From Pseudomonas brassicacearum (GTDB lineage Bacteria; Pseudomonadota; Gammaproteobacteria; Pseudomonadales; Pseudomonadaceae): a DNA stretch of 64,000 nt. Where the stretch lies: positions 496,001 through 560,000 of the forward strand of contig NZ_CP007410.1 of the NCBI RefSeq assembly GCF_000585995.1, read 5' to 3'. Shown here one piece after another: positions 3,610-31,243 of the stretch. Below the pieces are notes generated by a model. That model was not told the DNA's origin, did not search any database, and saw only the letters and a list, made by a program, of their open reading frames with translations. Made by a program: the position numbers and the translations under genes. The stretch's first letter is position 1. Every line of letters begins with the position of its first letter.

Positions 3610-4073
3610 GGCGGGGTTCCTGTTGCAGACGGTTCATGAAGGTAATGGGCGCCCTTGGGCGGACGGAACACGTTCAGCCGGGCCATGGCATGGATGCCAG
3701 GGGCGTGGATGTGGCATTCGAACACGCCCATGCCGTTGTCGTCTTCCAGGGAGCGCACACCGTGGATGGTCAGCTCGGCACCGACTGGGAAATACTCGAC
3801 GTTGCATTCGAACTTGCGGGTGCCGAGCAGGAAACCCAGCTCCACGGCATCGCCGCGTCGGCGGGCATGGCAACCGGCAAATGCTGCAACGCTCTGGGCC
3901 ATCAACTCGATGCCAACCCAGGCCGGCAGCGCGCCGTCGTCGCGGTTGAACAAACCGCCAGGCTTGACCGTGGTGCAGGTATGGATCTGCTCGTCATCGA
4001 AGGCCAGGATCCGGTCGATCAGAATCATGTCGCCGGCATGGGGCAGCAGTTCGGCGAGTGGCCAGTCAATCAT
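3606..4073 (-). CDS. Hotdog-fold 3-hydroxyacyl-ACP dehydratase, APE cluster
   Basis: A 155-residue FabA/FabZ-like hotdog protein (MIDWPLAELLPHAGDMILIDRI at the N-terminus, with HAGDM as the likely catalytic-His loop, then GIELMAQSVAAFAG, where Glu is in the central helix). It dehydrates 3-hydroxyacyl-ACP to build the conjugated double bonds. It corresponds to the free-standing dehydratase of APE systems (ApeP type); the other hotdog domain in this cluster is fused to the ligase at 15554-17227. It overlaps both neighbours by 4 bp. Confidence 0.85.
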   Translation of the reverse strand: MIDWPLAELLPHAGDMILIDRILAFDDEQIHTCTTVKPGGLFNRDDGALPAWVGIELMAQSVAAFAGCHARRRGDAVELGFLLGTRKFECNVEYFPVGAELTIHGVRSLEDDNGMGVFECHIHAPGIHAMARLNVFRPPKGAHYLHEPSATGTPP

Positions 4074-5266
4074 GGGGCGTCTCCGATAATCAGGCTGACG
4101 TTGTTGCCGCCGAAGGCGAACGAATTGCTCATCAGGCGGCGCGGCGATGTCGGGTTCAGGCGGGTGCTGGCGTTTACCCAGTCCAGCGCTGGCAGTTCAG
4201 GGTCGGCCTGGCCGTCCCAGACATGCGGTGGCAGACGCTGGTCGGGATTTTCGGCGCTCAGGCTCAACCAGCAGAACGCTGCTTCCAGCGCCCCGGCTGC
4301 CCCAAGGGTATGGCCGGTCATGGGCTTGGTGGACGAACAGGGCACCCCTGTCGGAAACAGCCCGGCCACTGCCTGGCTTTCCATGGCGTCATTGTGTTGC
4401 GTGGCGGTGCCGTGCAGGTTCAGGTAGTCGATCTGGCGGGCCTCGATGCCTGCGCAGTGCAAGGCTTTTTCCATCGCTTGGCGGGCGCCGCGACCACTGG
4501 GTTCAGGGGCGGAAATATGGTGGGCATCGGAGCTGGCGCCGTCGCCCAGCAAGGCAATACGAGTGCCGTCACCTGGCGTCTTGCTCATGAGAAACAGCAC
4601 CGCCGCTTCACCAATATTGATGCCGCTGCGGTTCGCTGAAAACGGATTGCAGCGTTCGCTGGAGACCGCTTCCAGGGCGGAAAAACCATTGAGAGTCAGT
4701 TTGCACAGACTGTCCACTCCGCCACAGAGCACGGCATCGCACAGGCCCAGGTCCAGCAGGCGTCGGGCGCTCATCAAGGCGCGGGCGCTGGATGTGCAGG
4801 CGGTGGAAATCACATAGGAGGGACCGCTCAGGTCGAGCCAGTCGGACAGAAAGTTGGCCGGCGCGCTGAGCTCCTGTTGCTGGTAGTCGTAGCCGTCGGG
4901 GAAGCGCTGCTCGCGCAGGTAATGGGCAATGCCACTGCTCGCCTCATCGATGCCCGAGGTGCTGGTACCGAGCACGATGCCAATACGGGCGCGGCCGTAG
5001 GTGTGGATTGCCTGATCGATCTCGGTGCGGATCTGCAACCCGGCTTCCAGCAGCAGCTGATTATTGCGGCTGCGCTGTGCCACCAACGCTTCGGGGATAG
5101 GCGCGAGTTCACCGGACACCGAGGCCACCGGTAATGCACGCTCAGCCACCCAACCAGCCTCGACACGCACGCCGCCGCAGTCGCCGGCAAACAGATTGCG
5201 CGCAACTGTATGTTTGTCGCGGCCCAGGGCGCAGATCACCCCGAGGGCATTCAAATAGGCGGTCAT
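4070..5266 (-). CDS. Beta-ketoacyl-ACP synthase, APE cluster
   Basis: A 398-residue ketosynthase starting MTAYLNALGVICALG. The triad is complete: Cys157 in STACTSS, His285 in LHGTATQHND, and Lys314/His319 in STKPMTGHTLG, so it is catalytic and not a chain-length factor. An in-frame extension to 5566 would read through the preceding lipoprotein gene and has no protein character. The ATG at 5266 overlaps that gene's stop as ATGA and is the real start. It probably extends the polyene chain with the two ACPs and the CLF-like protein encoded at the head of the operon. Confidence 0.92.
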   Translation of the reverse strand: MTAYLNALGVICALGRDKHTVARNLFAGDCGGVRVEAGWVAERALPVASVSGELAPIPEALVAQRSRNNQLLLEAGLQIRTEIDQAIHTYGRARIGIVLGTSTSGIDEASSGIAHYLREQRFPDGYDYQQQELSAPANFLSDWLDLSGPSYVISTACTSSARALMSARRLLDLGLCDAVLCGGVDSLCKLTLNGFSALEAVSSERCNPFSANRSGINIGEAAVLFLMSKTPGDGTRIALLGDGASSDAHHISAPEPSGRGARQAMEKALHCAGIEARQIDYLNLHGTATQHNDAMESQAVAGLFPTGVPCSSTKPMTGHTLGAAGALEAAFCWLSLSAENPDQRLPPHVWDGQADPELPALDWVNASTRLNPTSPRRLMSNSFAFGGNNVSLIIGDAP

Positions 5267-7714: not shown

Positions 7715-8872
7715 TCAACTCTTGGCACTTGAGCTCCTGGCCGGGACGGCAAACGAGGGAATACGGTGGAAACCGGCCACGGCCGGCAGCAATGTGGCGA
7801 TCAGGCCCATCAGCATCAGCGTGAAGTACAACGCCGGGCTGATGAGCTGTTGTTGCAAGAGCAGGTTGAGGAACACGATTTCACTCAAGCCGCGGATGTT
7901 CAGCAAGACACTTTCGCGCCAGCGACTGGCACCGGCAAAGGGTGTATCGGCCCATCCCAGCCCCAGCCAGTTGCCCAGCAGTTTGCTGGCGATCGGCAAT
8001 AGCAGCAACGCCCCTATCTGTAGCCAATCGAGGTTGTTCATGGCGCTGTGGACGTTGATTTGCACTATGCCGAAGGTGAGGATCAGCGGGATCGCCAGGT
8101 AGGTCTGCAAACCTTGCATCCAGCTCGCATTGAGCGGCAACACCAACGGCACCTTGAGCGCGGCCATGCACAGCAGATAACCAATGCCGACAATCAGTGC
8201 GTTGAGCCGATAGTGTTCGGCCACCACCAGCAGGGCAAAAAAGATCCCGCTGTGCAACAGCGGTTGGCGCAGGCCAAACAGTCGCAACAGCAGCGGCATA
8301 CAGGCACCGGCCAACGGCAGTAACAAACTGTTCAGGTGCAGGCTGCCCTGGGCCAGGCCGAACAGGCTCCAGCACATCAGGTCGATCAGAATCGCGGTTT
8401 GCACCAGGCGCCGGGTGGCGGCGGGTGGGTAGTCGATGTGGCGCAGGTACAGGTACAGCACCGGTATCGCGGTAATTGCAAACAGCAGCCCCACCGCCAG
8501 GGAACTGATCCAGGGCTGGGGCGGCAGCAACCAGAGCGCGGTGGCCAGACCGCAGGCGAACGGAATGCCGAAGCTCGGCAGGGCGATCTTCACGCTCTGG
8601 CGGTCCAGGCGCAGGTCAATCACGTCGCTGAGGATGTGTCCCAGCAATAGCGCGAACGCGAGGCTGTAGAGATTCTTCAGCCACACCGGCGACACCAGTT
8701 GCGCGCCGCTGAGGGACCAGCCGGGCTCGATCCAGAAGTACATCAGCAGGGGCAAGCCGAACGTCGCCAGCAGCAATTGGCTGACAATCGGAATCAGCCC
8801 GAAGCGACGGCCGATGCGCGTTGCGGCCGCGAATAGCCCCAGGGCCATGAGCCAGAACACCAGGATCATCAT
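7715..8872 (-). CDS. CPA2-type cation/proton antiporter-like membrane protein in the APE operon
   Basis: A 385-residue integral membrane protein with about 11-12 hydrophobic segments and no soluble domain. The C-terminal stretch NIRGLSEIVFLNLLLQQ followed by an ISPALYFTLMLMGLIATLLP segment resembles the 'TRGLVELIVLNIG...ISPxLF' region of CPA2 Na+/K+:H+ exchangers, and FAITAIPVLYLYL fits the family's central helix. It is co-directional and overlaps the MMPL gene by 4 bp (ATGATGA), so it belongs to the operon. A transporter of this kind is not a standard APE gene; its substrate is unknown. It could supply proton or cation balance to the MMPL exporter or carry out another step in export. Confidence 0.65.
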   Translation of the reverse strand: MMILVFWLMALGLFAAATRIGRRFGLIPIVSQLLLATFGLPLLMYFWIEPGWSLSGAQLVSPVWLKNLYSLAFALLLGHILSDVIDLRLDRQSVKIALPSFGIPFACGLATALWLLPPQPWISSLAVGLLFAITAIPVLYLYLRHIDYPPAATRRLVQTAILIDLMCWSLFGLAQGSLHLNSLLLPLAGACMPLLLRLFGLRQPLLHSGIFFALLVVAEHYRLNALIVGIGYLLCMAALKVPLVLPLNASWMQGLQTYLAIPLILTFGIVQINVHSAMNNLDWLQIGALLLLPIASKLLGNWLGLGWADTPFAGASRWRESVLLNIRGLSEIVFLNLLLQQQLISPALYFTLMLMGLIATLLPAVAGFHRIPSFAVPARSSSAKS

Positions 8873-11208
8873 TGGGCTGGCTCCGCAACGGCAGCCGCGT
8901 GGGCCTGATGCCCGGCCCACGGCGCCAGCATAAAGCTGAACGCCAGCCCCAGGCTTACCGCCAGGCCGAAATTACTCACCGCCGGTGTGCTGGAAAGCGC
9001 CAGCAGGCCGAACGACAGCCAGGTGGTGACCGCCGCCAGGAAGGTGCCCAGCAGACTCACCGCCGCGCCACCGATTTGCTCACGCATCAGGATCGCGTAG
9101 TCGACGCCGATGGCCGTTACCAACAACAGGCCGAACAGGCTGAACAGCGTCAACGGTTGTCCCAGCCAGCCGAGGCTCGCCAGGCTGCACAGTGCGGCCA
9201 GCAACGGCAGGGCAACGATGCGCAAGGCGCCGCCGACGCCGAACGGCCAGATCAACACCAGCACGATCAGCACGCAGGAAGCCAATTTCAACTCGGCGGC
9301 GCTGATCTGCGTGGCGGCGAAGACCCGGTTCAGGTCTCCCAGGCGATCCACCAGTTGCACACCGGGCAAGTCCACGGCCTGCACCCGCAGCAACGCGGCA
9401 TCGTTCAGGCCTTGCAGGCTGACGACTGCCGCTACGCCTTGCGCCGTCTGTCCGAGCCAGAGCGTGCGGTACGGCTCGGCCAGCGGGCCGGTCAGCGCGG
9501 CATCGATGTCGGTCACGGGCAGGGCCTGCAATTGCGCGAGCTCCGCTTGCAGCGTGGCGAGCGGTACGCCCAGATCCAGCAGCGGTTGCCAGAAGTCCGG
9601 TAGCCGGGCCAGGGCCTCACGGACTTTTTGCTGTTCAGCGGGCGGACTGACCAATTGGTTCAGCGACAGGTAACCCTGGAGTTTTTCCAGGCCGATCAAT
9701 TGCTCCAGCCGTTCGTTGAGGGCGGTCTGGCGCTCCAGCAACTGTGGCTGATCATCGGCGCGAATCAGGAAAAACTGGCTGGTGGGTTGGAAACCGGTGA
9801 TGCGGGCGATATCGCGGGCTTCGTCGGTCAGGTGCTGGGGCGTACCGATCCATTGGCGGATGTCGTTTTTCGTGGTCAGTTGCCACAGACCACCCGCGCA
9901 GAATGTCAGCAGCAGCGCCAGCAGGACCGGTGTGCGCACCCGCGCCAGCAGGGCTTGGCGGGCCTTGAGCAGGTACTCGCAGAGCCGCAGCGGCCATTGG
10001 GCCGGACGTAGCTCAACACCCTTGAGCAGCGCCGGCAGCAGGCAGACCGCGCTCAGGTAGGCGCCGACCAGGCCAGCGGCGGAAAATATCGCGATCTGGG
10101 TCAGGGCCGGGAACGGTGTCCAGGCCAGGGCCAGGTAACCGATGCAGGTGGTCGCCAGGCTCAGGCTCAGCCCCGGCAGGGTCAGGCGCAAGGCCGGCCA
10201 GCTGCGCCACGGCTTGAGGCTCCAGCTTTTGGACAGATAGTGCAGCGGGTAATCCACGGCCACGCCGATCAGGCTGGAGCCGAGCACCAGGGTCATGACG
10301 TGCATGCGCCCAAACAGCGCCACGCAAGCCACCGCCCCAAACAGCATGCCCACCAGTACCGGTACGAACGCCAGCCACACCCGAAAACGGCGGAAGGCCA
10401 GCAACAGCAGCAACAGAATGCCGAGTGTCGCACCACCGCCGACCCAGGTGATTTCCCGCGATGCCTGCTGCTGGCCGCTGGCGGCGTACAGCAGGCCGCT
10501 GGCCGCCAGTAGTTGGGCTTGGCCCTGGCCGACCTGATCACGGCTGTGCTGCAGCAACTCGGCCACTTTCAGCGGCAGGTCCATGTCGAAAGCGTTGCCA
10601 TGGGTACGGGCCCGCAGCATCACCCAATGTTTGCCATCGGCTTCGGCGATCAGCGCACCGCTGCCCACGTCCAGTTGGATCGCGCCACGTTGAGGTTGGC
10701 TGTTCTGGATGCGTCCGGTCAGGCCCAGCCAGTCGTCCTGGCTCGGCACCAGGCTGAAGCCAGTGAACGGGTCGAACAGCGCCTGCCCCCGTTGTTGGAT
10801 GAACGCCTGGGGCTGGTCGATCAATTGCTGCCGGTCGGGTGCCGAGAGCATCGCCAGCCGTCCGTTCAGCAATTGCGTGCGCAACGCCGGTAGGTCGGCC
10901 TGCAACGTCCATTGGACCTTGTCGAACAGACCGCTGGCTTGCCATTGCTCGCCCAGGGTTTGCGCCAGGGCGATGGCTTGTTGGCGATCCGCATGACCGA
11001 CCAGCACCAGCACCTCGCGATTGAGCGGTTCCTGCATGCGCTGCTCGGCGACGAGCTCCAGGGCGTCGGGAGAAGTGCCCGGCACCAACTCCATGAGATT
11101 GGCCGACAGCGGCGCACCGTTGCGCCATTGCCAACCGGCGAGCGCCAGCACTGCCAGTAGCAGGATCAGGAACAGCCGTGGCAGCATCCGTTCACTCGGC
11201 AAAATCAT
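8869..11208 (-). CDS. MMPL/RND-family exporter, APE cluster
   Basis: A 779-residue membrane transporter of the MMPL type: one N-terminal helix, a periplasmic domain, a bundle of about five helices, a second periplasmic domain and a second bundle. The conserved charged region of the bundles is visible in SLIGVAVDYPLHYLS and ATAIGVDYAILMRE (the GxxxDY pattern of RND and MMPL pumps). Together with the LolA-like and DUF3261 proteins it probably moves the aryl-polyene lipid from the inner to the outer membrane. The first ATG (11208) has GGAG 5 nt upstream and overlaps the LolA-like gene by 17 bp; an internal ATG at 11187 is less well supported. Confidence 0.87.
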   Translation of the reverse strand: MILPSERMLPRLFLILLLAVLALAGWQWRNGAPLSANLMELVPGTSPDALELVAEQRMQEPLNREVLVLVGHADRQQAIALAQTLGEQWQASGLFDKVQWTLQADLPALRTQLLNGRLAMLSAPDRQQLIDQPQAFIQQRGQALFDPFTGFSLVPSQDDWLGLTGRIQNSQPQRGAIQLDVGSGALIAEADGKHWVMLRARTHGNAFDMDLPLKVAELLQHSRDQVGQGQAQLLAASGLLYAASGQQQASREITWVGGGATLGILLLLLLAFRRFRVWLAFVPVLVGMLFGAVACVALFGRMHVMTLVLGSSLIGVAVDYPLHYLSKSWSLKPWRSWPALRLTLPGLSLSLATTCIGYLALAWTPFPALTQIAIFSAAGLVGAYLSAVCLLPALLKGVELRPAQWPLRLCEYLLKARQALLARVRTPVLLALLLTFCAGGLWQLTTKNDIRQWIGTPQHLTDEARDIARITGFQPTSQFFLIRADDQPQLLERQTALNERLEQLIGLEKLQGYLSLNQLVSPPAEQQKVREALARLPDFWQPLLDLGVPLATLQAELAQLQALPVTDIDAALTGPLAEPYRTLWLGQTAQGVAAVVSLQGLNDAALLRVQAVDLPGVQLVDRLGDLNRVFAATQISAAELKLASCVLIVLVLIWPFGVGGALRIVALPLLAALCSLASLGWLGQPLTLFSLFGLLLVTAIGVDYAILMREQIGGAAVSLLGTFLAAVTTWLSFGLLALSSTPAVSNFGLAVSLGLAFSFMLAPWAGHQAHAAAVAEPAQ

Positions 11209-20918: not shown

Positions 20919-21920
20919 TCAGCTGATTTTGCTGAGGTAAGGTGGCAAGTCTTGCTCCGGCACGACCGACAGCACCTTGAGGCGTTGCAGCATGCGTTGC
21001 CGGGCGCGGTGCAAATGCTCCTTGAGGTTCAGCGCGGCGGCGTCGAAGGCCCCGTGTAATAGCAGTTCCAGAATCAGGCGGTGCTCGGCCAGCATGGCGG
21101 GGTCCGCGCCGATTCCCAGCAGTCGGGAAAAAATCCGGCTGATGATCATCGGGCTCTGGGCCTGGCGAATCAGTGCTGCCATTTTGCGATTCTGCAGGCC
21201 GCTGAGGCAGTGCTGGTGCAGGTCTTCCTCGATACGCTGGATCGTCTCTTCCGGGCAATGCTCAGCCTGTTGCGCCTGGGTCACCCGTTCCAGCATGGCT
21301 TGCAGTTGCTCACGGCTCAGCCCAGGCGCGCTTTGACGTAGCGCCTCGGGCTCCAGGCAGGCGCGCAATTCATAATCTTCGGTGACTTCACGGGCGGTGA
21401 GCGGGCCGGCCAGCCATTGTGAATAGGGCTCTTTTTCCAGCAGGCCCCGATCCCTCAGGCGCATCAAGGCTTCTCGCACCACGGCCCGGCTCACGCCGTA
21501 ATGCTCGGCGGCGGCTTGTTCATCGAGGCGGTAGTGGCCGAAGGTAATGCAGGTCAGCAGCGCGCTGCCGATTTCCTCGTGGATCCGCTCCCCCAGTGGC
21601 CGCGTGTCCACCAGTTCTTCGCCGCTCGCCAGGCCCAGGTGGGCATGGCTCAAGGGCAGGCGTAGCGGCTCGATATCCAGGCCCAGGGGGTTGATCAAGT
21701 ACCCACGCCCGTCAAAACGACGGATCAACCGCTCTTCGTGCAACAGATCCAGCGCCTTGCGCACCGGCACACGGCTGGTGCCGAACAGCTCGGCCAGCGG
21801 CGCTTCCAGTAAGACCAAACCTTGCAGCGCGGTGCCCTCGGTGATTGCGTCACGCAATACCTGATGAATCATCGCGTAGCGCGACGCGGTGCGTGGGTCT
21901 TGGGCTGGCGCTGCTTTCAT
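20919..21920 (-). CDS. GntR-family regulator with two winged-helix domains and an FCD-like C-terminus
   Basis: A 333-residue regulator. Residues about 14-75 form one GntR winged helix (LAELFGTSRVPVRKALDLLHEE then GRGYLI), and residues about 112-170 form a second (AAEHYGVSRAVVREALMRLRDR). The rest is an all-helical FCD-like effector domain. A normal FadR-type regulator has one winged helix of about 60 residues in about 230 residues; the tandem arrangement is unusual. The start at 21920 has GAGGA about 5 nt upstream. It is divergent from the amidase operon, which it probably controls through the palindromes in the gap. It converges with parA (16 bp apart). Confidence 0.85.
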   Translation of the reverse strand: MKAAPAQDPRTASRYAMIHQVLRDAITEGTALQGLVLLEAPLAELFGTSRVPVRKALDLLHEERLIRRFDGRGYLINPLGLDIEPLRLPLSHAHLGLASGEELVDTRPLGERIHEEIGSALLTCITFGHYRLDEQAAAEHYGVSRAVVREALMRLRDRGLLEKEPYSQWLAGPLTAREVTEDYELRACLEPEALRQSAPGLSREQLQAMLERVTQAQQAEHCPEETIQRIEEDLHQHCLSGLQNRKMAALIRQAQSPMIISRIFSRLLGIGADPAMLAEHRLILELLLHGAFDAAALNLKEHLHRARQRMLQRLKVLSVVPEQDLPPYLSKIS

Positions 21921-22042
21921 CGATTCCTCTGGGCGTGTCGGTGATGGCGGGATTCTCTCACAGTGTCCTGTGTCACTGAGGGTCACATTGGCGCGCCCTT
22001 TCGTGGGGCCCGCTCCATCAAAGCGTTACTTTTCTGCACCTA

Positions 22043-22069
22043 AATGTATCTTTTATAAAAATATACATT
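22043..22069. promoter_or_regulatory. Candidate GntR operator, palindrome 1
   Basis: A 27-bp imperfect palindrome centred at 22056 with 11 of 13 positions paired. The left arm reads AATGTATCTTTTA, the right arm ends ATATACATT. It lies 123 bp upstream of the GntR start and in the gap shared with the amidase operon. TGTAT/ATACA half-sites are common for FCD-type GntR regulators. A 160-bp stretch (22070-22222) with no visible gene separates it from palindrome 2. Confidence 0.6.
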
Positions 22070-22222
22070 AGCTAAGCATCCCATCCAGGTTTTGACCAGC
22101 ACCAGGCTCATCCACCGCATGGACGCCGCTCTAAGCCGGTGATTCCAGGCCGTTGGCAGATAGAAGGAGGCGACGAGTATTCAGCGACGCCAGAATAGCT
22201 GGCATGGAATCTGCTCCGTATA

Positions 22223-22249
22223 AATGTATATTTTAATAATTGATACGTT
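22223..22249. promoter_or_regulatory. Candidate GntR operator, palindrome 2
   Basis: A 27-bp element whose left arm AATGTATATTTTA repeats that of palindrome 1 except for one base; 9 of 13 positions pair with the right arm, which ends TTGATACGTT. It ends 5 bp before the proposed amidase start, so a bound regulator would block transcription or initiation. Confidence 0.55.
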
Positions 22250-22254
22250 TTCGG

Positions 22255-23628
22255 ATGCCCTTGCCCATGAATTCATTTTCCTCGCCCGATGCCATCGCGC
22301 TTGCCGAAGCCTTCGCCTCGGGGCGTACCGACCCGGTCCAAGTGCTGGAGCAAGCGCTGGAGCAAGCCGCGCGTGCCGAACATGTGTTCGTGTCGCTGAC
22401 CGAAGCCCGGGCCCGGCGCGAAGCGCAGGCCTCGGCGGCGCGCTGGCGTGCCGGGCAACCGCTGAGTGGCTTCGATGGCGTGCCGCTGGCTTGGAAGGAC
22501 CTGTTCGACGTGGCCGGCAGTGTCACCACCGCGGCAGCGGCGGTGCGTCGGGATGCACCGCCCGCGCTGTTGGACGCCGCCAGTGTCAGTCTGCTTAGCC
22601 GAGCGGGCATGGTCTGCCTGGGCAAGACCAACCTCAGCGAGTTCGCCTATTCAGGGCTCGGCCTCAACCCGCACTTTGGCACGCCGGTCAACCCGTACAG
22701 CGATGCGCAGCCACGCATCCCCGGCGGCTCCTCCAGCGGTTCGGCGGTGGCGGTCGCGGCGGGCATCGTGCCGATCGCCATGGGCACCGATACCGCCGGT
22801 TCGATCCGCGTCCCGGCGGCTTTCAACGCTCTGGTGGGGTTTCGCGCCAGCTCCCGTCGTTACAGTCGCGACGGGGTGTTTCCCCTGGCCCACAGCATCG
22901 ACAGCGTCGGCCCGTTGACTCGTAGCGTGCGTGACGCCTGGATGATCGACGAACTGCTTCAGGGGCGCGATCCACGACAAACGCCACCGGTGCGCAGCCT
23001 GGCCGGGCAGCGTTTCTGGGTCGAGCAAGCGGTGCTGGAGGATGCCCGTGTCGAGGCTGCGGTGCAGGCCAATGTGCAGGCCGGTATCCAGGCGTTGCGC
23101 ACGGCCGGGGCGCTGGTGGAAATTCGGCCATTGCCCGCTTTCCAGGCCAGCCTCGCGCTGATCCGCGACCACGGCTGGCTGGGGGCGGCCGAAGCATTCG
23201 CCTTGCATGAGGCTCTGCTCGACAGCGCCGATGCCGAACGCCTCGACCCGCGGGTACGCCGACGGCTCGAAGCGGCGCGGCCCATGACCGCCAGCCAGGT
23301 GCTCAAACTCTACGACGCCCGATCGACCTTGCAGCGCCAACTCGTCGAGGAGCTCGACGGCGCGGTGCTGATCACGCCGACCGTGGCCCACGTCGCCCCG
23401 CCGTTGGCGCCTTTGGAAACCGACGACGAACTGTTTATCCGCACCAATCTCGCCACCCTGAGGCTGACGATGCCCGGCAGCTTGCTCGACATGCCCGGCG
23501 TCAACCTGCCCAGCGGCCGTGACCGCCAGGGGCTGCCCACTGGCCTGCTGCTTAGCGTGCCCCAAGGCGAGGATGCCCGGCTCTTGCGGGTCGCGCGCTC
23601 GGTCGAGGCGACGCTGACCAATTCCTGA
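22255..23628 (+). CDS. Amidase-signature (AS) family amidase
   Basis: A 457-residue amidase of the GatA/AS family that hydrolyses a C-N amide bond. The Ser-cisSer-Lys triad is visible: Lys in PLAWKDLFDV, cis-Ser in PGGSSSGSAVAVAAG and the nucleophile Ser in GTDTAGSIRVPAAF. It is cytoplasmic, with no signal peptide. Start: ATG at 22255 or 22267; neither has a strong ribosome site, which is unusual for the operon's first gene. It heads an eight-gene operon with a NodB-fold hydrolase next. If that enzyme opens cyclic imides, this amidase could hydrolyse the resulting half-amide. The true substrate is not known. Confidence 0.85.
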   Translation: MPLPMNSFSSPDAIALAEAFASGRTDPVQVLEQALEQAARAEHVFVSLTEARARREAQASAARWRAGQPLSGFDGVPLAWKDLFDVAGSVTTAAAAVRRDAPPALLDAASVSLLSRAGMVCLGKTNLSEFAYSGLGLNPHFGTPVNPYSDAQPRIPGGSSSGSAVAVAAGIVPIAMGTDTAGSIRVPAAFNALVGFRASSRRYSRDGVFPLAHSIDSVGPLTRSVRDAWMIDELLQGRDPRQTPPVRSLAGQRFWVEQAVLEDARVEAAVQANVQAGIQALRTAGALVEIRPLPAFQASLALIRDHGWLGAAEAFALHEALLDSADAERLDPRVRRRLEAARPMTASQVLKLYDARSTLQRQLVEELDGAVLITPTVAHVAPPLAPLETDDELFIRTNLATLRLTMPGSLLDMPGVNLPSGRDRQGLPTGLLLSVPQGEDARLLRVARSVEATLTNS

Positions 23629-23665
23629 TTGATGTTTAAACAACCACCACAACCGGAGGCCGATC

Positions 23666-24547
23666 ATGGCTAAAGATATTCTTTGTGCATTTGGGGTCGA
23701 TGTAGACGCCGTGGCGGGCTGGCTCGGCTCCTATGGCGGTGAAGATTCGCCCGACGATATTTCCCGGGGCCTGTTTGCCGGTGAAATCGGCGCGCCGCGG
23801 CTGCTCAAACTGTTCGAGCGCTACGGCCTGCGCACTACCTGGTTTATTCCCGGGCATTCCCTGGAGACCTTTCCCGAGCAGATGAAAGCCGTGGCCGACG
23901 CGGGCCACGAGATCGGTGTGCACGGCTATAGCCACGAAAACCCCATCGCAATGACCCCGCAACAGGAAGAAGCGGTGCTCGACAAGTCCATCGAGTTGAT
24001 TACCCAGGTGACCGGCAAGCGGCCTACCGGCTACGTCGCACCCTGGTGGGAATTCAGCAAAGTGACCAACGAGCTGCTGCTCAAGAAAGGCATCAAGTAC
24101 GACCACAGCCTGATGCACAACGACTTCCATCCCTACTACGTTCGCGTTGGCGACAGCTGGACCAAGATCGACTACAGCCAACACCCGGACACCTGGATGA
24201 AGCCGCTGGTGCGTGGCCAGGAAACCGACTTGGTGGAGGTCCCGGCGAACTGGTACCTCGACGATTTGCCACCGATGATGTTCATCAAGAAGTCGCCCAA
24301 CAGCCACGGTTTCGTCAATCCACGGCACCTCGAGGAGATGTGGCGCGATCAGTTCGACTGGGTCTATCGCGAACACGAGCATGCCGTGTTCACCATGACC
24401 ATCCACCCCGACGTCTCCGGGCGTCCCCAGGTGCTGCTGATGCTGGAGCGCCTGATCGAACACATTCAGGGCCATGCCGGCGTGCGCTTCGTCACGTTCG
24501 ATGAAATTGCCGATGACTTCATTCGTCGCAACCCCCGCAGCCGCTGA
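23666..24547 (+). CDS. NodB-fold hydrolase, cyclic-imidase / PgdA-like
   Basis: A 293-residue polysaccharide-deacetylase-fold protein without a signal peptide. The metal site is recognisable: Asp in FGVDVDA (12-14) and the HxxxH motif HGYSHE (His86, His90); IHPDVSG lies near the end. The lack of export signal argues against a cell-wall deacetylase. From general knowledge, PuuE-type allantoinase and bacterial cyclic imide hydrolase share this fold, and the length and N-terminus suit them. I infer a cytoplasmic cyclic amide or imide hydrolase. It is 37 bp after the amidase gene and 27 bp before the transporter gene. Confidence 0.78.
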
Positions 24548-24574
24548 GCCGGCATTTAATCGAGGCGTGTTCTC

Positions 24575-25915
24575 ATGTCCATCTACAACAAACTCGACCT
24601 GACTGGTTGGAAACCCGAGCAATTGACTCCGGCTCAGGTGCGCTTCGCCACCTGGATCGCTTTTTTTGCCTGGGTGTTTGCGGTCTACGACTTCATTCTG
24701 TTCGGCACGTTGTTGCCGGAAATCGGCCGGCACTTCAATTGGAGCGAAGTCGAGCAGGCCGAAATCGCCACCTGGGTGGCGGTCGGCACGGCGGTGGTGG
24801 CGTTGGCCATTGGTCCCCTGGTGGACCGCCTGGGCCGGCGCATGGGGATCATCTTCACTGTCAGCGGCGCAGCGATCTGTTCGGCACTGACGGCCATCGG
24901 CGGTGCCTGGGGCAAGTCGCCGTTGATCCTGATCCGTTCTCTGGGCGGGTTGGGTTATGCGGAGGAGACCGTCAATGCCACCTATCTGAGCGAGCTTTAC
25001 GCCGCCTCCGATGACCCGAGACTGGCCAAACGACGTGGTTTCATCTACAGCCTGGTGCAGGGTGGCTGGCCGGTGGGCGCGCTGACCGCCGCCGGGTTGA
25101 CCGCCGTGCTGCTGCCGACCATCGGCTGGCAGGGCTGTTTTATCTTTGCGGCGATCCCGGCCATCGTCATTGCGATCATGGCGCGCAAGCTCAAGGAAAG
25201 CCCGCAGTTCCAGATCCACCAGCGCATCGGCCAGTTGCGCAAGAGCGGCGCGGTTGCCGATGCCCAAGCGGTGGCGTCCACCTACGGCGTCGATTACGAG
25301 GAACACAGCAAGGCCGGCCTCGCGGCGGCCTTTCGCGGCACATCGCGACGCGCGACGCTGGTGATCGGCGCGGCGATCCTGCTCAACTGGGCGGCGATCC
25401 AGGTGTTCAGCGTGCTCGGCACCACGGTGATCGTCAGCGTGCACCATATCTCCTTCGAAAACTCGTTGATCATCCTGGTGCTCTCCAACCTGGTGGGCTA
25501 CTGCGGTTACCTGAGCCATGGCTGGATGGGCGACAAGATTGGCCGGCGCAATGTCATCGCGTTGGGCTGGATGCTGGGTGGGCTGTCGTTTGCCGGCATG
25601 CTCTACGGTCCGAGCAACCTGCCGATGGTGGTCGGCCTTTACAGTCTGGGCCTGTTCTTCCTGATCGGGCCCTATTCGGCGGCGCTGTTTTTCATCGGTG
25701 AGAGTTTCCCCACCAGCATCCGCGCCACGGGCGGCGCGATTATCCATGCCATGGGGCCGATCGGCGCGGTGCTGGCCGGGTTCGGTGCCACCCAGGTGTT
25801 GTCGGCGGGGGGCAACTGGCAGACCTCGGCGCTGTACTTCGGCGCGCTGCCTTGTTTCCTCTCCGGTGCGCTGATGTTCGCGGCGCGCCACGTCCGTCCG
25901 GAAACCGTGAAGTAA
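24575..25915 (+). CDS. MFS transporter (metabolite:H+ symporter type)
   Basis: A 446-residue major facilitator with 12 predicted helices. The loop 2-3 motif [12 protein letters not shown] and a DKIGRRN repeat in the second half are present, along with an [12 protein letters not shown] segment, as in sugar/aromatic-acid symporters. A cytoplasmic loop of about 50 residues separates the halves. It probably imports the substrate of the amidase and NodB-fold enzymes encoded upstream. Confidence 0.85.
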
Positions 25916-25926
25916 GGAGGCCCCTC

Positions 25927-26688
25927 ATGACCCGTAGAGTTGCATTGATTACCGGTGCCGCCAGCGGCATCGGCCAGGCCCTTGCCGTGGCGTATGCCCG
26001 CCACGGTGTGGCCGTGGCCGCAGGCTACTTGCCGGCGGCCCCCCACGACCCGCAAGACACCCGCCAACAGATCGAGGCGTTGGGTGGCGAATGCCTGATG
26101 CTGCCACTGGACGTGACCGACACTCGCTCGGTGGATAACCTGGCCGAGCAGGCGTTCAGCACCTTCGGGCGTCTCGATTACGCGGTGGCCAACGCTGGCC
26201 TGCTGCGCCGCGCGCCCCTGTTGGAAATGAACGACGAGGCCTGGAACGCCATGCTCGATGTCGATCTGACCGGGGTGATGCGCACCTTCCGCGCCAGCGT
26301 TCGCTACATGACCGAAGGCGGTGCGTTGGTGGCGATTTCTTCGATCGCCGGCGGTGTGTATGGCTGGCAGGACCACTCTCATTACGCCGCGGCCAAGGCC
26401 GGTGTGCCGGGCCTATGCCGTTCTCTGGCGGTCGAGTTGGCCGGGCAGGGCATTCGCTGCAATGCGGTGATCCCGGGCCTGATCGAGACGCCGCAGTCAT
26501 TGGACAGTAAAAACTCCCTCGGGCCCGAAGGCCTGGCCAAGGCGGCCCGGGCGATTCCGCTAGGGCGAGTCGGCCGCGCCGATGAGGTGGCGTCGCTGGT
26601 GCGGTTCTTGACCAGCGACGAGTCCAGCTACCTGACGGGCCAGAGCATCATCATTGATGGCGGCCTGACCGTGCGTTGGCCGGATTGA
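25927..26688 (+). CDS. Short-chain dehydrogenase/reductase
   Basis: A 253-residue classical SDR: cofactor motif [17 protein letters not shown], the Ser in ISSIAGG and the catalytic pair in YAAAKAG. The C-terminus ([19 protein letters not shown]) is typical. The ATG at 25927 follows TAAGGAGG, 11 nt after the transporter stop, so the extended frame upstream is rejected. The substrate is unknown; it may oxidise or reduce a product of the imide/amide pathway. Confidence 0.88.
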
Positions 26689-26758
26689 AGTCGGGCGTCA
26701 CAGTTGTGTTTTCAATGGATGGCCGTCCATGTTTGCCTTGGATCTGGAGGATTTTCCC

Positions 26759-27508
26759 ATGCAACAACTGTTCAACCGCCGCGCCGTGATCACCGGCGCC
26801 GGCAGCGGCATCGGTGCTGCCATCGCGCGGGCTTATGCCGCGCAAGGCGCGCGCCTGGTGCTGGCCGATCGCGATGCAGAACGCTTGTCCACCACCGCAA
26901 AGGACTGTCGCGCGCTGGCGGTCGAGGTGTACGAGTGCGTGGCCGATGTCGGCACGCTCGAAGGGGCCCAGGCTGGGGTCGATGCGTGCGTCGAGCACTT
27001 TGGCGGTATCGATATTCTGGTCAACAACGCCGGTATGCTGACCCAGGCGCGCTGCACCGAGCTGAGCATCGACATGTGGAACGACATGCTCCGGGTCGAC
27101 TTGACCAGCGTGTTCATCGCCAGTCAGCGAGCCTTGCCCCACATGCTGGCGCAGCGCTGGGGACGGATCATCAACGTCGCCTCGCAATTGGGCATCAAAG
27201 GCGGGGCCGAACTCAGTCACTACGCGGCGGCCAAGGCTGGGGTGATCGGTTTTACCAAGTCACTGGCCTTGGAAGTGGCCGCCGACAATGTGTTGGTCAA
27301 CGCCATCGCCCCCGGGCCGATCGAAACACCGCTGGTGGCCGGCATCAGCGAAAGCTGGAAACAGGCCAAGTCCGCCGAGCTGCCGTTGCGACGCTTCGGC
27401 CTGGCCACGGAAGTGGCGCCCACCGCCGTACTGCTGGCCAGTGACCCGGGAGGCAACCTGTTCGTGGGGCAAACCCTGGGACCGAACGCTGGCGACGTCA
27501 TGCCATGA
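26759..27508 (+). CDS. Short-chain dehydrogenase/reductase (second)
   Basis: A 249-residue classical SDR with TGAGSGIGAAIARAYA, LVNNAG, the Ser in NVASQLG and YAAAKAG. The start MQQLFNRRAVITG (26759) has GGAGG 8 nt upstream; the 10-residue upstream extension is rejected. It lies 70 bp after the first SDR and is clearly different from it, so the operon encodes two redox steps or two specificities. Confidence 0.88.
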   Translation: MQQLFNRRAVITGAGSGIGAAIARAYAAQGARLVLADRDAERLSTTAKDCRALAVEVYECVADVGTLEGAQAGVDACVEHFGGIDILVNNAGMLTQARCTELSIDMWNDMLRVDLTSVFIASQRALPHMLAQRWGRIINVASQLGIKGGAELSHYAAAKAGVIGFTKSLALEVAADNVLVNAIAPGPIETPLVAGISESWKQAKSAELPLRRFGLATEVAPTAVLLASDPGGNLFVGQTLGPNAGDVMP

Positions 27509-27522
27509 AGGAGTGCTGAAGC

Positions 27523-27822
27523 ATGTGTGGCTTGTGTGGTTTGCTGGGCGAGGACGTGCATTGGAGTGATCCGCTGGGTGATGAACTGCCCCGGCGTCGT
27601 GAGCGGTTGCGCCGGATTTCGGCGATTAACCGCGTGTTGGCGCCGTTACGGCTCAAGGTCGAGGATTTTCAGGGCACGGCGTATCTGCTGCTGGGCGCCA
27701 CCGGGCGGCAGGAACTGGCCAGCGGGCTCGACCAGTTGTGGAGCCTGGTCGAGTCGATGACGGGCCGTGCGGCGGACCCTCTCGATCCAGCCCTGCTCCA
27801 GTCTTTGGAACAAGCCTCATGA
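27523..27822 (+). CDS. Small 99-aa protein beginning MCGLCG, next to a metallochaperone
   Basis: A 99-residue protein I do not recognise as a named family. It begins MCGLCGLLGED: a Cys at position 2 (as in the N-terminal nucleophile Cys of class II glutamine amidotransferases, MCGI/VxG) that is also part of a CxxC pair. The rest is helical and charged (PRRRERLRRISAINRVLAP), with QGTAYLLLGATGRQ near the middle. It is far too short for a glutaminase domain of about 200 residues. A GAAGGAG site lies 14 bp after the second SDR, and the stop overlaps the GTPase start as ATGA, so the protein is probably made together with the GTPase. Confidence 0.7.
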   Translation: MCGLCGLLGEDVHWSDPLGDELPRRRERLRRISAINRVLAPLRLKVEDFQGTAYLLLGATGRQELASGLDQLWSLVESMTGRAADPLDPALLQSLEQAS

Positions 27823-28823
27823 GCATTGCCCTGAACGTCATCACCGGTTTTCTCGGCAGCGGCAAGACCACCTTGCTCAACCGTCTGCTGCAAGACGAAA
27901 GCCTCGGTGACACCGCGTTGTTGATCAATGAATTCGGCGATATCGGCATCGATCACTTGTTGGTCCAGGAAGTGGCGCCGGACACCGTGTTGTTGCCCAG
28001 TGGATGCGTCTGCTGTTCCATCCGCGGCGAGTTGAAAGACGCGTTGCTCGATCTGCTGGTGCGGCGTGACCGAGGCGAAATCCCGGCTTTTCGACGGGTG
28101 ATCCTGGAGACGACCGGGCTGGCCGATCCGGCGCCGATCCTGGCGACACTCAACAACGACGTGCAATTGCGCGGACGCTTCCATATTGGCTTGGTGGTGA
28201 CGCTGGTAGATGCCTGTCACGCCGAACTGCAGGCGCGCATTCACCCGGAGTGGCTGGCCCAGGTTGCCGCCGCGGACCGCCTGCTGTTGAGCAAGACCGA
28301 CCAGGCCGCTGCGCCGGCTGTCAGCGAGTTGCGCCGACGGCTGCAAGCGCTGAACCCGGGGGCACCGCTGCTCGACACCCACGAAGTGCTCAGTGGCGAT
28401 CAATTATTGTTGGGCGAAGGTCTGCACGGCGCGGCGCCTGAAGTCGAGGTGGCCCGTTGGCAATTGCATCGTCCGCTGGGCCAGGTCACTCAGCATGGTC
28501 AGGCCCAGGTTTGCTGCCTGACCTTCGATCAGCCGCTGGACTGGATCGGCTTCGGGGTCTGGTTGTCGATGCTGCTAAGATGCCACGGCGAACGCATTCT
28601 TCGCGTCAAGGGATTGCTCAACGTGAACAGCCTCCAGGCCCCAGTCGTCATCCATGGCGTGCAGCATTGCCTGCACGCGCCGGTACACCTGCCCCGCTGG
28701 CCCAGTGCCGAGCGCCAATCGCGCTTGGTATTTATCGTCAGGGGCCTGGACCCGGAGCGGTTGCGGCATTCGTTCGATGTCTTTGCTCGTTGCTTCGCAC
28801 CGGCGGCTGAGGTGAGTGCCTGA
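27819..28823 (+). CDS. COG0523 (CobW/ZNG1-like) metal-chaperone GTPase
   Basis: A 334-residue G3E-family GTPase. Walker A is GFLGSGKTT (10-18); NEFGDIG and the metal-binding CxCC motif GCVCCSI (Cys63, 65, 66) follow. LSKTD supplies guanine specificity, and the C-terminal CobW_C domain has FIVRGLDPE. No His-rich loop is seen. Family members hand a metal, often Zn, to a target enzyme. The likely client is the metal-dependent NodB-fold hydrolase in the same operon. The gene overlaps both neighbours (ATGA and TGATG). Confidence 0.88.
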   Translation: MSIALNVITGFLGSGKTTLLNRLLQDESLGDTALLINEFGDIGIDHLLVQEVAPDTVLLPSGCVCCSIRGELKDALLDLLVRRDRGEIPAFRRVILETTGLADPAPILATLNNDVQLRGRFHIGLVVTLVDACHAELQARIHPEWLAQVAAADRLLLSKTDQAAAPAVSELRRRLQALNPGAPLLDTHEVLSGDQLLLGEGLHGAAPEVEVARWQLHRPLGQVTQHGQAQVCCLTFDQPLDWIGFGVWLSMLLRCHGERILRVKGLLNVNSLQAPVVIHGVQHCLHAPVHLPRWPSAERQSRLVFIVRGLDPERLRHSFDVFARCFAPAAEVSA

Positions 28824-30019
28824 TGACCAGCGGCACGCCCATCACGTTGCGGGTACTTGGCACCTCCGTCACGCTCCTAGAATCCCTGCGGGTCCGAGCC
28901 GAACAGGACCTTGGCATTCGCCTGGTCTATCAGGTCCACAGTGTCGAGCAGGCCCAGCGCATTGCGGTGATGCAACCGGACAGCTACGACCTGTACGACC
29001 AGTGGTTTCACAACGTTGATTTCGTCTGGCCGGCCAGAGCGATCCAGCCCATCGACACCCGGCGCATCGCTTTGTGGCATGAGATCAACGACCTGCCCAA
29101 GCGCGGCCGGTTGTCCGCCGCGGATCGCCCGGTCAGCGGCAGCGTGCCCAATGAGCGCCTGTACGTGCAACATGACGGCAGCCTGGGCAGCACCGTCAGC
29201 GACTACATCAGCATGTTGCCGTTGACCCACAACGCCGACAGTTTTGCCTACCGCCCGGAACGCTTGCCGATGGGATTTTCCCGTGACAACGAGAGTTGGG
29301 GCTGGCTGCTCGATCCGGCCTGGAGCGGTCGCACGGCGCTGCAAAGCGACGCGGCGATTGGCGCCATCGATGCGGCGCTGGCGATACAGGGCAAGGGCTT
29401 GGCGTCGTTCAAGGACATCGGCAATCTCAGCATCGAAGAGATCGACAGCCTGGCCGACGTCTTGGTGCGCAAACAGCGCGAAGGCCATTTCGCGGCGTTC
29501 TGGTCAGATGACGAACAGGCGGCGCAACTGATGCTCAGCCCGACCATCGACATCGAGAGCCTCTGGTCCCCGACGCTCATGCGCCTGCATCGGGCCGGGA
29601 TCAAGTACCGCCTTGCCGTGCCCCGTGAGGGTTATCGCGCTTGGTTCGGTGGGCTTTCCGTGTCACGCCATGCCCGGGGAGCGGTGCTGGATGCCGCCTA
29701 TGCGTTTCTTAATTGGTGGCTCTCGGGATGGCCTGGCGCGGTCATGGCGCGCCAGGGTTATTACATCAGCAACCCGCCCCGCAGCCGCGATCATTTGAGC
29801 GATGCCGAATGGGACTATTGGTACGCCGGCAAACCGGCCCGTGAAGTGTTGCCGGGCAGCGATGGCGAACCGCTGATCGACATCGGCGAAATTCGCGACG
29901 GCGGTTCGTATGAGCAACGCATGGGCCATATCGCCGTGTGGAACTCGGTGATGGACGAGCACAATTACCTGGTGCGCCGTTGGGGGGATTTTCTGCGGGC
30001 GGCCAACAAAGGTCGCTGA
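28823..30019 (+). CDS. Extracellular-type solute-binding protein lacking a signal peptide
   Basis: A 398-residue protein of the PotD/PotF-like family 1 binding-protein fold (motifs DLYDQWFHNVDFVWPARAIQPI, FSRDNESWGW, AYAFLNWWLSGWPG). The N-terminus MTSGTPITLRVLGTSVTLLE starts directly in the first beta strand, so no Sec or Tat signal is present. The start overlaps the GTPase stop by one base, so a longer, secreted form is not possible without reading into the GTPase gene. No ABC permease or ATPase gene is nearby. It may act as a cytoplasmic ligand-binding or enzyme-like protein, or be a remnant that lost its leader. Confidence 0.78.
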   Translation: MTSGTPITLRVLGTSVTLLESLRVRAEQDLGIRLVYQVHSVEQAQRIAVMQPDSYDLYDQWFHNVDFVWPARAIQPIDTRRIALWHEINDLPKRGRLSAADRPVSGSVPNERLYVQHDGSLGSTVSDYISMLPLTHNADSFAYRPERLPMGFSRDNESWGWLLDPAWSGRTALQSDAAIGAIDAALAIQGKGLASFKDIGNLSIEEIDSLADVLVRKQREGHFAAFWSDDEQAAQLMLSPTIDIESLWSPTLMRLHRAGIKYRLAVPREGYRAWFGGLSVSRHARGAVLDAAYAFLNWWLSGWPGAVMARQGYYISNPPRSRDHLSDAEWDYWYAGKPAREVLPGSDGEPLIDIGEIRDGGSYEQRMGHIAVWNSVMDEHNYLVRRWGDFLRAANKGR

Positions 30020-30616: not shown

Positions 30617-31243
30617 TTATTTAGCGTTGGTCAGCGTGTTGTAGCTGGTCATCAGGTTGCGATAGTCCGGGATGTGGTTGGAGAACAAGGTCGCCAGCCC
30701 TTCCACATCGTTGCGCCAGTCGCGGTGCAGCTCACAGGCCAGGCCGAACCAGGTCATCAATTGCGCGCCCGAGGAAGACATACGGTCCCAGGCCGATTGA
30801 CGGGTCAGTTCGTTGAACGTGCCGGAAGCATCGGTGACCACGAACACGTCGAAACCTTCGGCCAGGGCCGACAGGGCCGGGAAGGCCACGCAGACTTCGG
30901 TGACCACACCGGCGATGATCAGTTGTTTCTTGCCGGTGGCCTTGATCGCCTTGACGAAGTCTTCGTTGTCCCAGGCGTTGATCTGGCCAGGACGAGCGAT
31001 GTACGGCGCGTCCGGGAACAGGGTCTTGAGTTCCGGCATCAGCGGGCCGTTGGGACCGGTTTCGAAGCTGGTGGTGAGGATAGTCGGCAGCTGGAAGTAC
31101 TTCGCCAGGTCGGCCAGGGCCAGCACGTTGTTCTTGAAGCGGTCCGGGTCGATGTCGCGGACCAGGGAGAGCAGGCCGGCCTGGTGGTCAACCAGCAGAA
31201 CGGCGGCGTTATCTTTGTCGAGACGGTTGTAGGAAGTGGTCAT
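30617..31243 (-). CDS. Isochorismatase-superfamily hydrolase, YcaC-like
   Basis: A 208-residue cysteine hydrolase of the YcaC group. Asp19 (LVDHQAG) and Cys118 (VVTEVCVAF) of the usual Asp-Lys-Cys triad are present; the residue at position 84 is Arg (YIARPGQ), so the basic member of the triad may differ. YcaC proteins have no firmly known physiological substrate. It is divergent from a LysR-type regulator, which probably controls it. Confidence 0.88.
   Translation of the reverse strand: MTTSYNRLDKDNAAVLLVDHQAGLLSLVRDIDPDRFKNNVLALADLAKYFQLPTILTTSFETGPNGPLMPELKTLFPDAPYIARPGQINAWDNEDFVKAIKATGKKQLIIAGVVTEVCVAFPALSALAEGFDVFVVTDASGTFNELTRQSAWDRMSSSGAQLMTWFGLACELHRDWRNDVEGLATLFSNHIPDYRNLMTSYNTLTNAK

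Follow-up and report, generated by a model that had tools for sequence, protein, structure and literature searches.

Organization of the operon

The stretch of DNA analysed here, called the window throughout, comprises 64,000 nucleotides of Pseudomonas brassicacearum (NCBI RefSeq assembly GCF_000585995.1, contig NZ_CP007410.1, positions 496,001 to 560,000 of the forward strand) and belongs to a one-contig genome of 6.65 Mb. Within it, a divergent GntR-family gene precedes eight co-directional genes at 22255-30019, among them an amidase, a NodB-fold hydrolase, a COG0523 GTPase and a small protein of 99 amino acids (aa). Homology and gene context suggest, with a probability of roughly 0.62, that the operon serves the catabolism of a small cyclic imide, or of a hydroxylactam oxidised to one, and has a dedicated metal-supply pair. 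The features, in window coordinates, are as follows.

20919..21920, minus strand: GntR-family regulator (Pfam GntR in two stretches, and FCD)
22041..22069, no strand: palindromic candidate operator 1, AATGTAT-N-ATACATT type (palindrome search of the intergenic region)
22221..22249, no strand: palindromic candidate operator 2, just before the amidase start (76% identical copy of operator 1)
22255..23628, plus strand: amidase-signature amidase (Pfam Amidase, 1.8e-75; NCBIfam PRK06102, 693.2 bits, cut-off 559)
23666..24547, plus strand: cytoplasmic NodB-fold hydrolase, cyclic imide hydrolase (CIH) type (546.7 bits to Helicobacter pylori HP0310/PgdA, 3qbu)
24575..25915, plus strand: major facilitator superfamily (MFS) transporter (Pfam MFS_1, Sugar_tr)
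25927..26688, plus strand: short-chain dehydrogenase/reductase (SDR) 1 (Pfam adh_short_C2, 2.9e-65)
26759..27508, plus strand: SDR 2 (Pfam adh_short, 1.2e-58)
27523..27822, plus strand: 99-aa CIH-linked protein, P99 (N-terminal MCxxCG...HW; no Pfam family)
27819..28823, plus strand: COG0523 (CobW/YjiA-like) GTPase with a CVCC motif (Pfam cobW, CobW_C)
28823..30019, plus strand: PotD/PotF-fold solute-binding protein without a leader (SBP_bac_8; Foldseek to PotD, 2.6e-17)

The listing of open reading frames (ORFs) and the Pfam and NCBIfam scans confirm all nine genes, and with them the gene set, order, strands, short gaps and overlaps of the original prediction, which had been made from the sequence of the window. 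The amidase may start at 22255 or at 22267. The P99 and COG0523 genes overlap by 4 bases, and the COG0523 and binding-protein genes by 1. For the MFS protein, the best NCBIfam model is an aromatic acid/H+ symporter, with a score far under its cut-off.

Genome contigs were scanned with an alignment of the binding protein, and the best 80 of 271 stretches were kept, of which 79 carry the name Pseudomonas. The full set of nine genes occurs in 70 of the 80 loci (individual loci carry L numbers below); contig ends cut seven (L021, L026, L033, L037, L040, L055 and L087), and three have every gene but a detectable amidase (L045, L060 and L065). The GntR gene adjoins the operon in 73 loci, the other seven being those cut by contig ends. 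Distribution is patchy: a binding-protein match (E 0.001) was found in 15 of 57 sampled genomes, of which eight, the source genome included, are of the same genus at an identity of at least 70%, two lie in other families at 46%, and five are weak.

A cytoplasmic hydrolase related to HP0310

By sequence, the closest solved relative of the hydrolase is HP0310 of H. pylori (HpPgdA; 3qbu and 4ly4), the match covering residues 1-292. HpPgdA is a tetramer whose heavy ion, taken as zinc, has His86, His90 and Asp14 as ligands, with Asp12 and His247 close by (PMC3084791). The same residues, D12, D14, H86, H90 and H247, are invariant in 39 of 39 aligned hydrolase rows. This alignment holds 39 of 101 rows, with the near-copies L020-L087 omitted and two places counted twice; 35 of the rows have a linked P99 gene and four have none. 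Like HpPgdA, for which the same is reported (PMC3084791), the hydrolase lacks a signal peptide: Asp12 and Asp14 lie at most 14 residues from the start, and the open frame spans 304 aa against a protein of 293 aa. The cytoplasmic NodB-fold hydrolase first proposed is therefore upheld by full-length homology, conserved metal residues and the missing leader. In HpPgdA the active site is poorly accessible or closed, which suggests a small substrate, and the protein is described as inactive towards allantoin and towards the pure polysaccharide components and the acetylated polyamines and dipeptides with which it was tried (PMC3084791).

On sequence grounds, the hydrolase belongs with HpPgdA, which differs in carrying the name peptidoglycan deacetylase, and with the cyclic imide hydrolases. 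Its Pfam family is Polysacc_deac_1, and "cyclic imide hydrolase" is already the name of 4 of 120 family members among the matches listed. The Pseudomonas putida cyclic imide hydrolase AAY98498 is of the same family and is linked to the hydrolase via the fungal protein HxnM only. AAY98498 is 293 aa long. Two other identities were rejected: PuuE allantoinase, whose NCBIfam model TIGR03212 gives 86.7 bits against a cut-off of 424.6, and an exported peptidoglycan deacetylase, since the leader is absent and the score is under the cut-offs of all 11 NCBIfam models matched.

Pathway precedent and gene neighbourhoods

The HxnM-HxnN-HxnW segment of nicotinate catabolism in Aspergillus nidulans offers a precedent, alike by gene type, in which a NodB-fold imide hydrolase, an amidase and an SDR act on one ring compound. 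HxnM shares 64.2% identity with AAY98498, and by structure its nearest relative is HpPgdA. Deletion of its gene leads to a build-up of 3-hydroxypiperidine-2,6-dione, the ring that HxnM is proposed to open (PMC9304392). HxnW makes the imide and HxnN frees ammonia from the half-amide, and the metabolites of the Hxn deletion strains point to a sequence from cyclic imide to half-amide to acid (PMC9304392). Pairing of the HxnM and HxnN genes in fungi is also described (PMC8478523). In contrast to the fungal segment, the bacterial operon lacks the upstream nicotinate enzymes and adds an MFS transporter, a GntR regulator, P99, the COG0523 GTPase, a cytosolic binding protein and a second SDR. By inference, its amidase is a half-amide hydrolase. 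It was originally proposed that the operon imports an imide, opens it, removes ammonia and oxidises the product. Homology and context, namely the HxnM-HxnN match and the neighbours described below, favour the opening and ammonia removal. Oxidation of the product may be misplaced in this order, since in the HxnW precedent the SDR step comes before ring opening.

Among plasmid records, 102 hold a hydrolase match (E 1e-40) and 67 a P99 match (E 1e-3). The 102 hydrolase matches comprise 17 at 80-90% identity, 55 at 60-80% and 30 under 60%. Eighteen annotated regions were read, 17 picked by the hydrolase and one by P99. The whole operon is kept in L199, with the GntR gene at the opposite end, after the leaderless binding-protein gene, and L201 keeps it minus the amidase. 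In L200, L203 and L212, an ATP-binding cassette (ABC) transporter replaces the MFS protein, and L135 looks alike, with an ATPase and a binding protein that has a leader resembling those of the twin-arginine translocation (Tat) system; in L204, the replacement is an NCS1 transporter, and a linked SDR is absent. An asparaginase stands in the place of the amidase in L205, L206, L208 and L212 and also lies beside the hydrolase in L210, L211 and L214, all three without the P99/COG0523 pair. A dihydropyrimidinase gene is close to the hydrolase in L205, L208 and L209, and genes for N-carbamoyl-D-amino-acid hydrolase and hydantoinase/oxoprolinase stand beside it in one or more of these three. In L213, urea amidolyase genes follow downstream. 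Ring C-N opening with release of ammonia runs through all the neighbour swaps, which do not name the substrate, and the neighbours elsewhere point to cyclic imide or ureide nitrogen compounds. Comparison of neighbourhoods, suggested at the outset as a check on the substrate class, thus gives an imide/ureide nitrogen context (asparaginase, dihydropyrimidinase, NCS1 and urea amidolyase) but not the compound itself.

Two further neighbours were seen. A 5-oxoprolinase (pxpA and carboxyltransferase) is annotated near the operon in Acidiphilium (L202, 15332-18867). A biotin-dependent carboxyltransferase gene lies in Shinella (L200, 1-209), and by eye, similar-looking frames occur in G709 (L135, 17049-19901).

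The hydrolase, P99 and GTPase triad

The new finding is that the hydrolase, P99 and the COG0523 GTPase form a triad. The hydrolase (E 1e-60) and the P99 profile (E 1e-5) were found in the identical 10 of 398 genomes of the phylum, the hydrolase cut-off being our own choice, at which more distant NodB proteins go uncounted. By genus, each is found in 6 of 212, and by our arithmetic two such sets would coincide by chance about once in 1e11, although genera are not fully independent. On plasmids, P99 and COG0523 genes are present in 13 of the 17 hydrolase-picked regions (L199-L209, L212 and L213). There are 23 triad rows, which include the window and two places fetched twice (L135/L188 and L147/L187). 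The gap between the P99 and COG0523 matches is less than 65 bases in 22 of these and 744 in L185. The hydrolase ends at most 160 bases upstream of the P99 gene in 17 rows, lies about 3 kb upstream in the window, L137, L138, L199 and L201, and is 5.3 kb away in L216.

Searches of Pfam and NCBIfam returned no family for P99, and no solved fold matched it with confidence. An N-terminal CxxC occurs in 102 of 102 loci inspected and the exact MCxxC...HW in 99, the exceptions being Q for H in L137 and L201 and V for the first M in L206. The GTPase has the cobW (143.5 bits) and CobW_C (79.1 bits) domains, both over cut-off, and is under the cut-off of every NCBIfam model that it matched. Its CxCC motif reads CVCC in the window and is present in 24 of 24 CIH-linked rows. 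In a tree of 48 COG0523 rows, rooted for drawing only, a branch of 97/95 support sets 24 hydrolase-linked rows chosen from the 102 loci, together with L243, apart from 23 paralogue rows of seven genomes. Those genomes gave 38 family matches, 30 with loci; four are hydrolase-linked genes, L242 and L246 were omitted for want of a usable frame, and L243 is the same gene as L186, hence 23 true paralogue rows.

The metal and the client of most COG0523 GTPases are described as not obvious in PMC2770081. The present GTPase shares the cobW and CobW_C domains and the CxCC motif with the metallochaperones YjiA, CobW, Nha3 and ZigA, and Nha3, the nitrile-hydratase activator, is likewise a COG0523 protein tied to one enzyme. 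It differs from these four in belonging to a separate group linked to a NodB-fold hydrolase and P99. Because of the linkage and the CxxC and CxCC motifs, P99 and the GTPase are read as a maturation pair that probably loads the hydrolase metal. Loading by the GTPase alone had been suggested; the triad rows and the tree bear out its tight linkage, but the proposed loading set should include P99. In the literature searched, COG0523 and imide hydrolase never occur together, and neither does an operon of deacetylase, CobW and amidase. One paper, in the portion available, names COG0523 and polysaccharide deacetylase under distant locus tags.

Asparaginase-adjacent hydrolases without the pair, as in L211 (Rhizobium sp. 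ACO-34A pRACO34Ac, 8001-8879), L210 and L214, are also seen in haloarchaea. These pair-free loci offer natural controls against which to judge the maturation idea.

A leaderless PotD-fold protein

The model of the binding protein, with a mean predicted local distance difference test (pLDDT) value of 83.7, has the PotD/PotF fold: Foldseek gives 2.6e-17 and a template-modelling (TM) score by target of 0.79 to 7xjn_B. The Pfam domain is SBP_bac_8; a single-sequence search found no solved relative, and a profile search gave weak ones only. Although it shares fold and domain with the PotD/PotF polyamine-binding proteins, it has no leader and no ABC partner in the operon. The start codon is preceded in frame by only four codons (GECL) after a stop (open frame 402 aa, protein 398 aa), so no signal peptide is possible, and a part in a periplasmic importer was rejected for want of room for a leader. 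Neither an ABC permease nor an ATPase appears in the operon by ORF listing and Pfam. With the binding protein cytosolic, the MFS protein is the sole transporter. The early description of the gene as binding-protein-like is right as to fold, but a periplasmic importer role does not follow from it. No publication on a cytosolic binding protein of this kind was found in the literature searched.

Leaders were compared across 135 binding-protein rows, rows whose match starts past profile position 10 (e.g. L143, L171 and one in L212) having been omitted. An automatic but noisy classifier placed 81 rows as COG0523-adjacent without a leader and 38 as elsewhere with one, with the remaining 16 split evenly between the two crosswise classes. 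Viewed by eye, the eight "adjacent with leader" rows translate a shadow frame of the COG0523 gene ahead of the true start. Among the eight "elsewhere, no leader" rows, L155, L140, L169 and L170 have RR- or KR-type leaders, and L062, L199, L202 and L208 are leaderless in hydrolase loci. The corrected tally is 93 leaderless rows and 42 with a leader; all 42 were viewed by eye, as was part of the 81. Copies in hydrolase loci have either nothing or a short plain stretch ahead of the first strand, and the RR- or KR-type leaders of the 42 rows (40 places) occur in ABC-type or other settings. In addition to a leaderless copy, L135, L200, L203 and L208 have another binding protein that lies beside ABC genes and bears a Tat-like leader, the ABC setting of L135 having only a recognised ATPase, and L212 has a second, ABC-linked binding protein. 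No leaderless copy was seen in the fetched stretches of nine triad loci (L185, L186, L187, L205, L206, L207, L209, L213 and L216), which places the binding protein outside the core.

Three observations concern relatives of this protein. In L208 (353-2597), the end of a GntR gene and the leaderless PotD-type gene have 8 bases in common, and the latter gene is divergent from an ABC operon whose binding protein has a Tat-like leader; the binding-protein/GntR adjacency in L208 and L199 hints at a regulatory tie. In L143 (G421), two binding-protein fragments at 3947-4345 and 9701-10102, 58% and 71% identical, share one locus and are perhaps remains of a lost operon. A group at 45-50% identity with Tat-like leaders, each followed by an open frame of 888-1109 aa, is found in L139-L142, L148, L149, L155, L156, L172 and L173.

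Regulation

By Pfam, the GntR protein has two GntR-type helix-turn-helix (HTH) stretches and an FCD domain. Two AT-rich palindromes lie 180 bases apart between the GntR and amidase genes. A search expression for the palindrome, written after sight of the site, finds five sites in the window, two of them in this gap. Of 71 intergenic regions, 69 contain one or more such sites, compared with 36 of 355 mononucleotide-shuffled sequences. A DNA loop formed by the double-HTH protein on the two palindromes is plausible. A zinc-starvation regulon was rejected, the window holding no match to a Zur-like pattern with up to three mismatches allowed. A strong Shine-Dalgarno-like sequence, AGAAGGAGG, occurs at 22162-22170, some 85 bases upstream of where the amidase gene starts; no start codon stands at a suitable spacing from it.

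Proposed pathway and alternative explanations

In the proposed pathway, the MFS protein would import the compound, and one or both SDRs would oxidise a ring or side-chain hydroxyl, a step that might form the imide in the manner of HxnW. Opening of the imide to a half-amide would fall to the NodB-fold enzyme, a mononuclear metal hydrolase, in keeping with its homology to CIH and HxnM. The amidase, following the precedent of HxnN, would then free ammonia, and the dicarboxylic acid would enter central metabolism. P99 and the GTPase may supply or insert the hydrolase metal, as linkage, the CxxC motif and general knowledge of COG0523 suggest. The double-HTH GntR protein would repress via the two palindromes, and binding of the ring compound or of a product to the FCD domain would relieve this. 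In the weakest part of the scheme, the cytosolic PotD-fold protein probably binds the substrate or an intermediate inside the cell. The identity of the substrate, the order of the SDR steps and the metal loading are what we infer here.

Several findings weigh against this pathway. Others' work cited in PMC3084791 had a crude H. pylori peptidoglycan extract deacetylated by HP0310, with supporting mutant data, and HP0310 shows acetyl-esterase activity on chitin, chitosan, acetylated xylan and para-nitrophenyl acetate (PMC3688963). Because of these data, a deacetylase or esterase function keeps some probability. In the fetched regions, an amidase of the window type was not seen in L201 and L202, nor a linked SDR of the window type in L204, L206, L207, L209 and L213, and the match of SDR 1 to 3awd, the nearest solved relative of HxnW, ranks low among many SDRs. 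The pair is missing from 4 of the 17 hydrolase-picked regions, L210, L211, L214 and L215, where the hydrolase is 52%, 79%, 42% and 39% identical, respectively. The pair is therefore not needed by every family member, and L211 indicates that even a close relative can do without it at that place. These exceptions hold back the maturation-pair reading, and the lack of a Zur-like box in the window counts on the same side.

P99 and the GTPase may instead serve another step, for example one that involves the leaderless binding protein, or survival under low zinc in general. The four regions without the pair would suit this, as would the six of 23 triad rows in which 3-5 kb separate the hydrolase from the two genes, themselves still together. 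Yet the nine triad stretches without a leaderless binding protein, the identical set of 10 genomes shared by hydrolase and P99, and the missing Zur-like box make such a role rather unlikely. The substrate might instead be a cyclic ureide or hydantoin-like compound (allantoin, a dihydropyrimidine or hydantoin), as the dihydropyrimidinase, N-carbamoyl-D-amino-acid hydrolase and hydantoinase/oxoprolinase genes of L205, L208 and L209 and the NCS1 transporter of L204 could indicate. A ureide product, however, would require a carbamoylase where the window holds an amidase, and a dihydropyrimidinase would be redundant beside a ureide-opening hydrolase. With the PuuE score so far below its cut-off and HpPgdA described as inactive on allantoin, a ureide is an unlikely substrate.

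An enzyme that removes acetyl groups from an acetylated compound, whether as deacetylase or as acetyl-esterase, is what the annotation suggests, and it would agree with the Polysacc_deac_1 family, the esterase data and the earlier crude-peptidoglycan work. The absent leader, the closed site of HpPgdA and its reported inactivity on pure N-acetylglucosamine-type compounds and acetylated polyamines argue the other way, and amidase or asparaginase together with urea and hydantoin partners suit C-N ring chemistry better; we regard this option as very unlikely.

The imide pathway would provide a setting for a large family annotated as "polysaccharide" or "peptidoglycan" deacetylase, HP0310 of H. pylori included. 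It would also bring in two new pathway components, a small protein with no Pfam family and a binding protein of the cytosol. Moreover, a unit of three genes that includes a single simple metalloenzyme allows the COG0523 metal and client question to be tested directly, and the maturation reading, if true, gives COG0523 a new client class. A more tentative extension, to which we would give slightly less than even odds, is that P99 founds a family of enzyme-specific maturation factors that, together with a COG0523 GTPase of its own, transfer metal through the N-terminal CxxC...H to one ring-opening NodB-fold client, and that the leaderless PotD-type protein is a transport receptor moved to the cytosol, where it has taken on another role within this pathway.

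Flanking gene and plasmid copies

Just past the operon, on the opposite strand at 30617-31243 (minus), lies a YcaC-type hydrolase gene of the isochorismatase family (404.2 bits, cut-off 310), with no sign of membership in the operon. Three Klebsiella plasmids (NZ_CP147633, NZ_CP099405 and NZ_CP151188) hold hydrolase, P99 and binding-protein genes within about 6.4 kb, and therefore the operon travels on plasmids.

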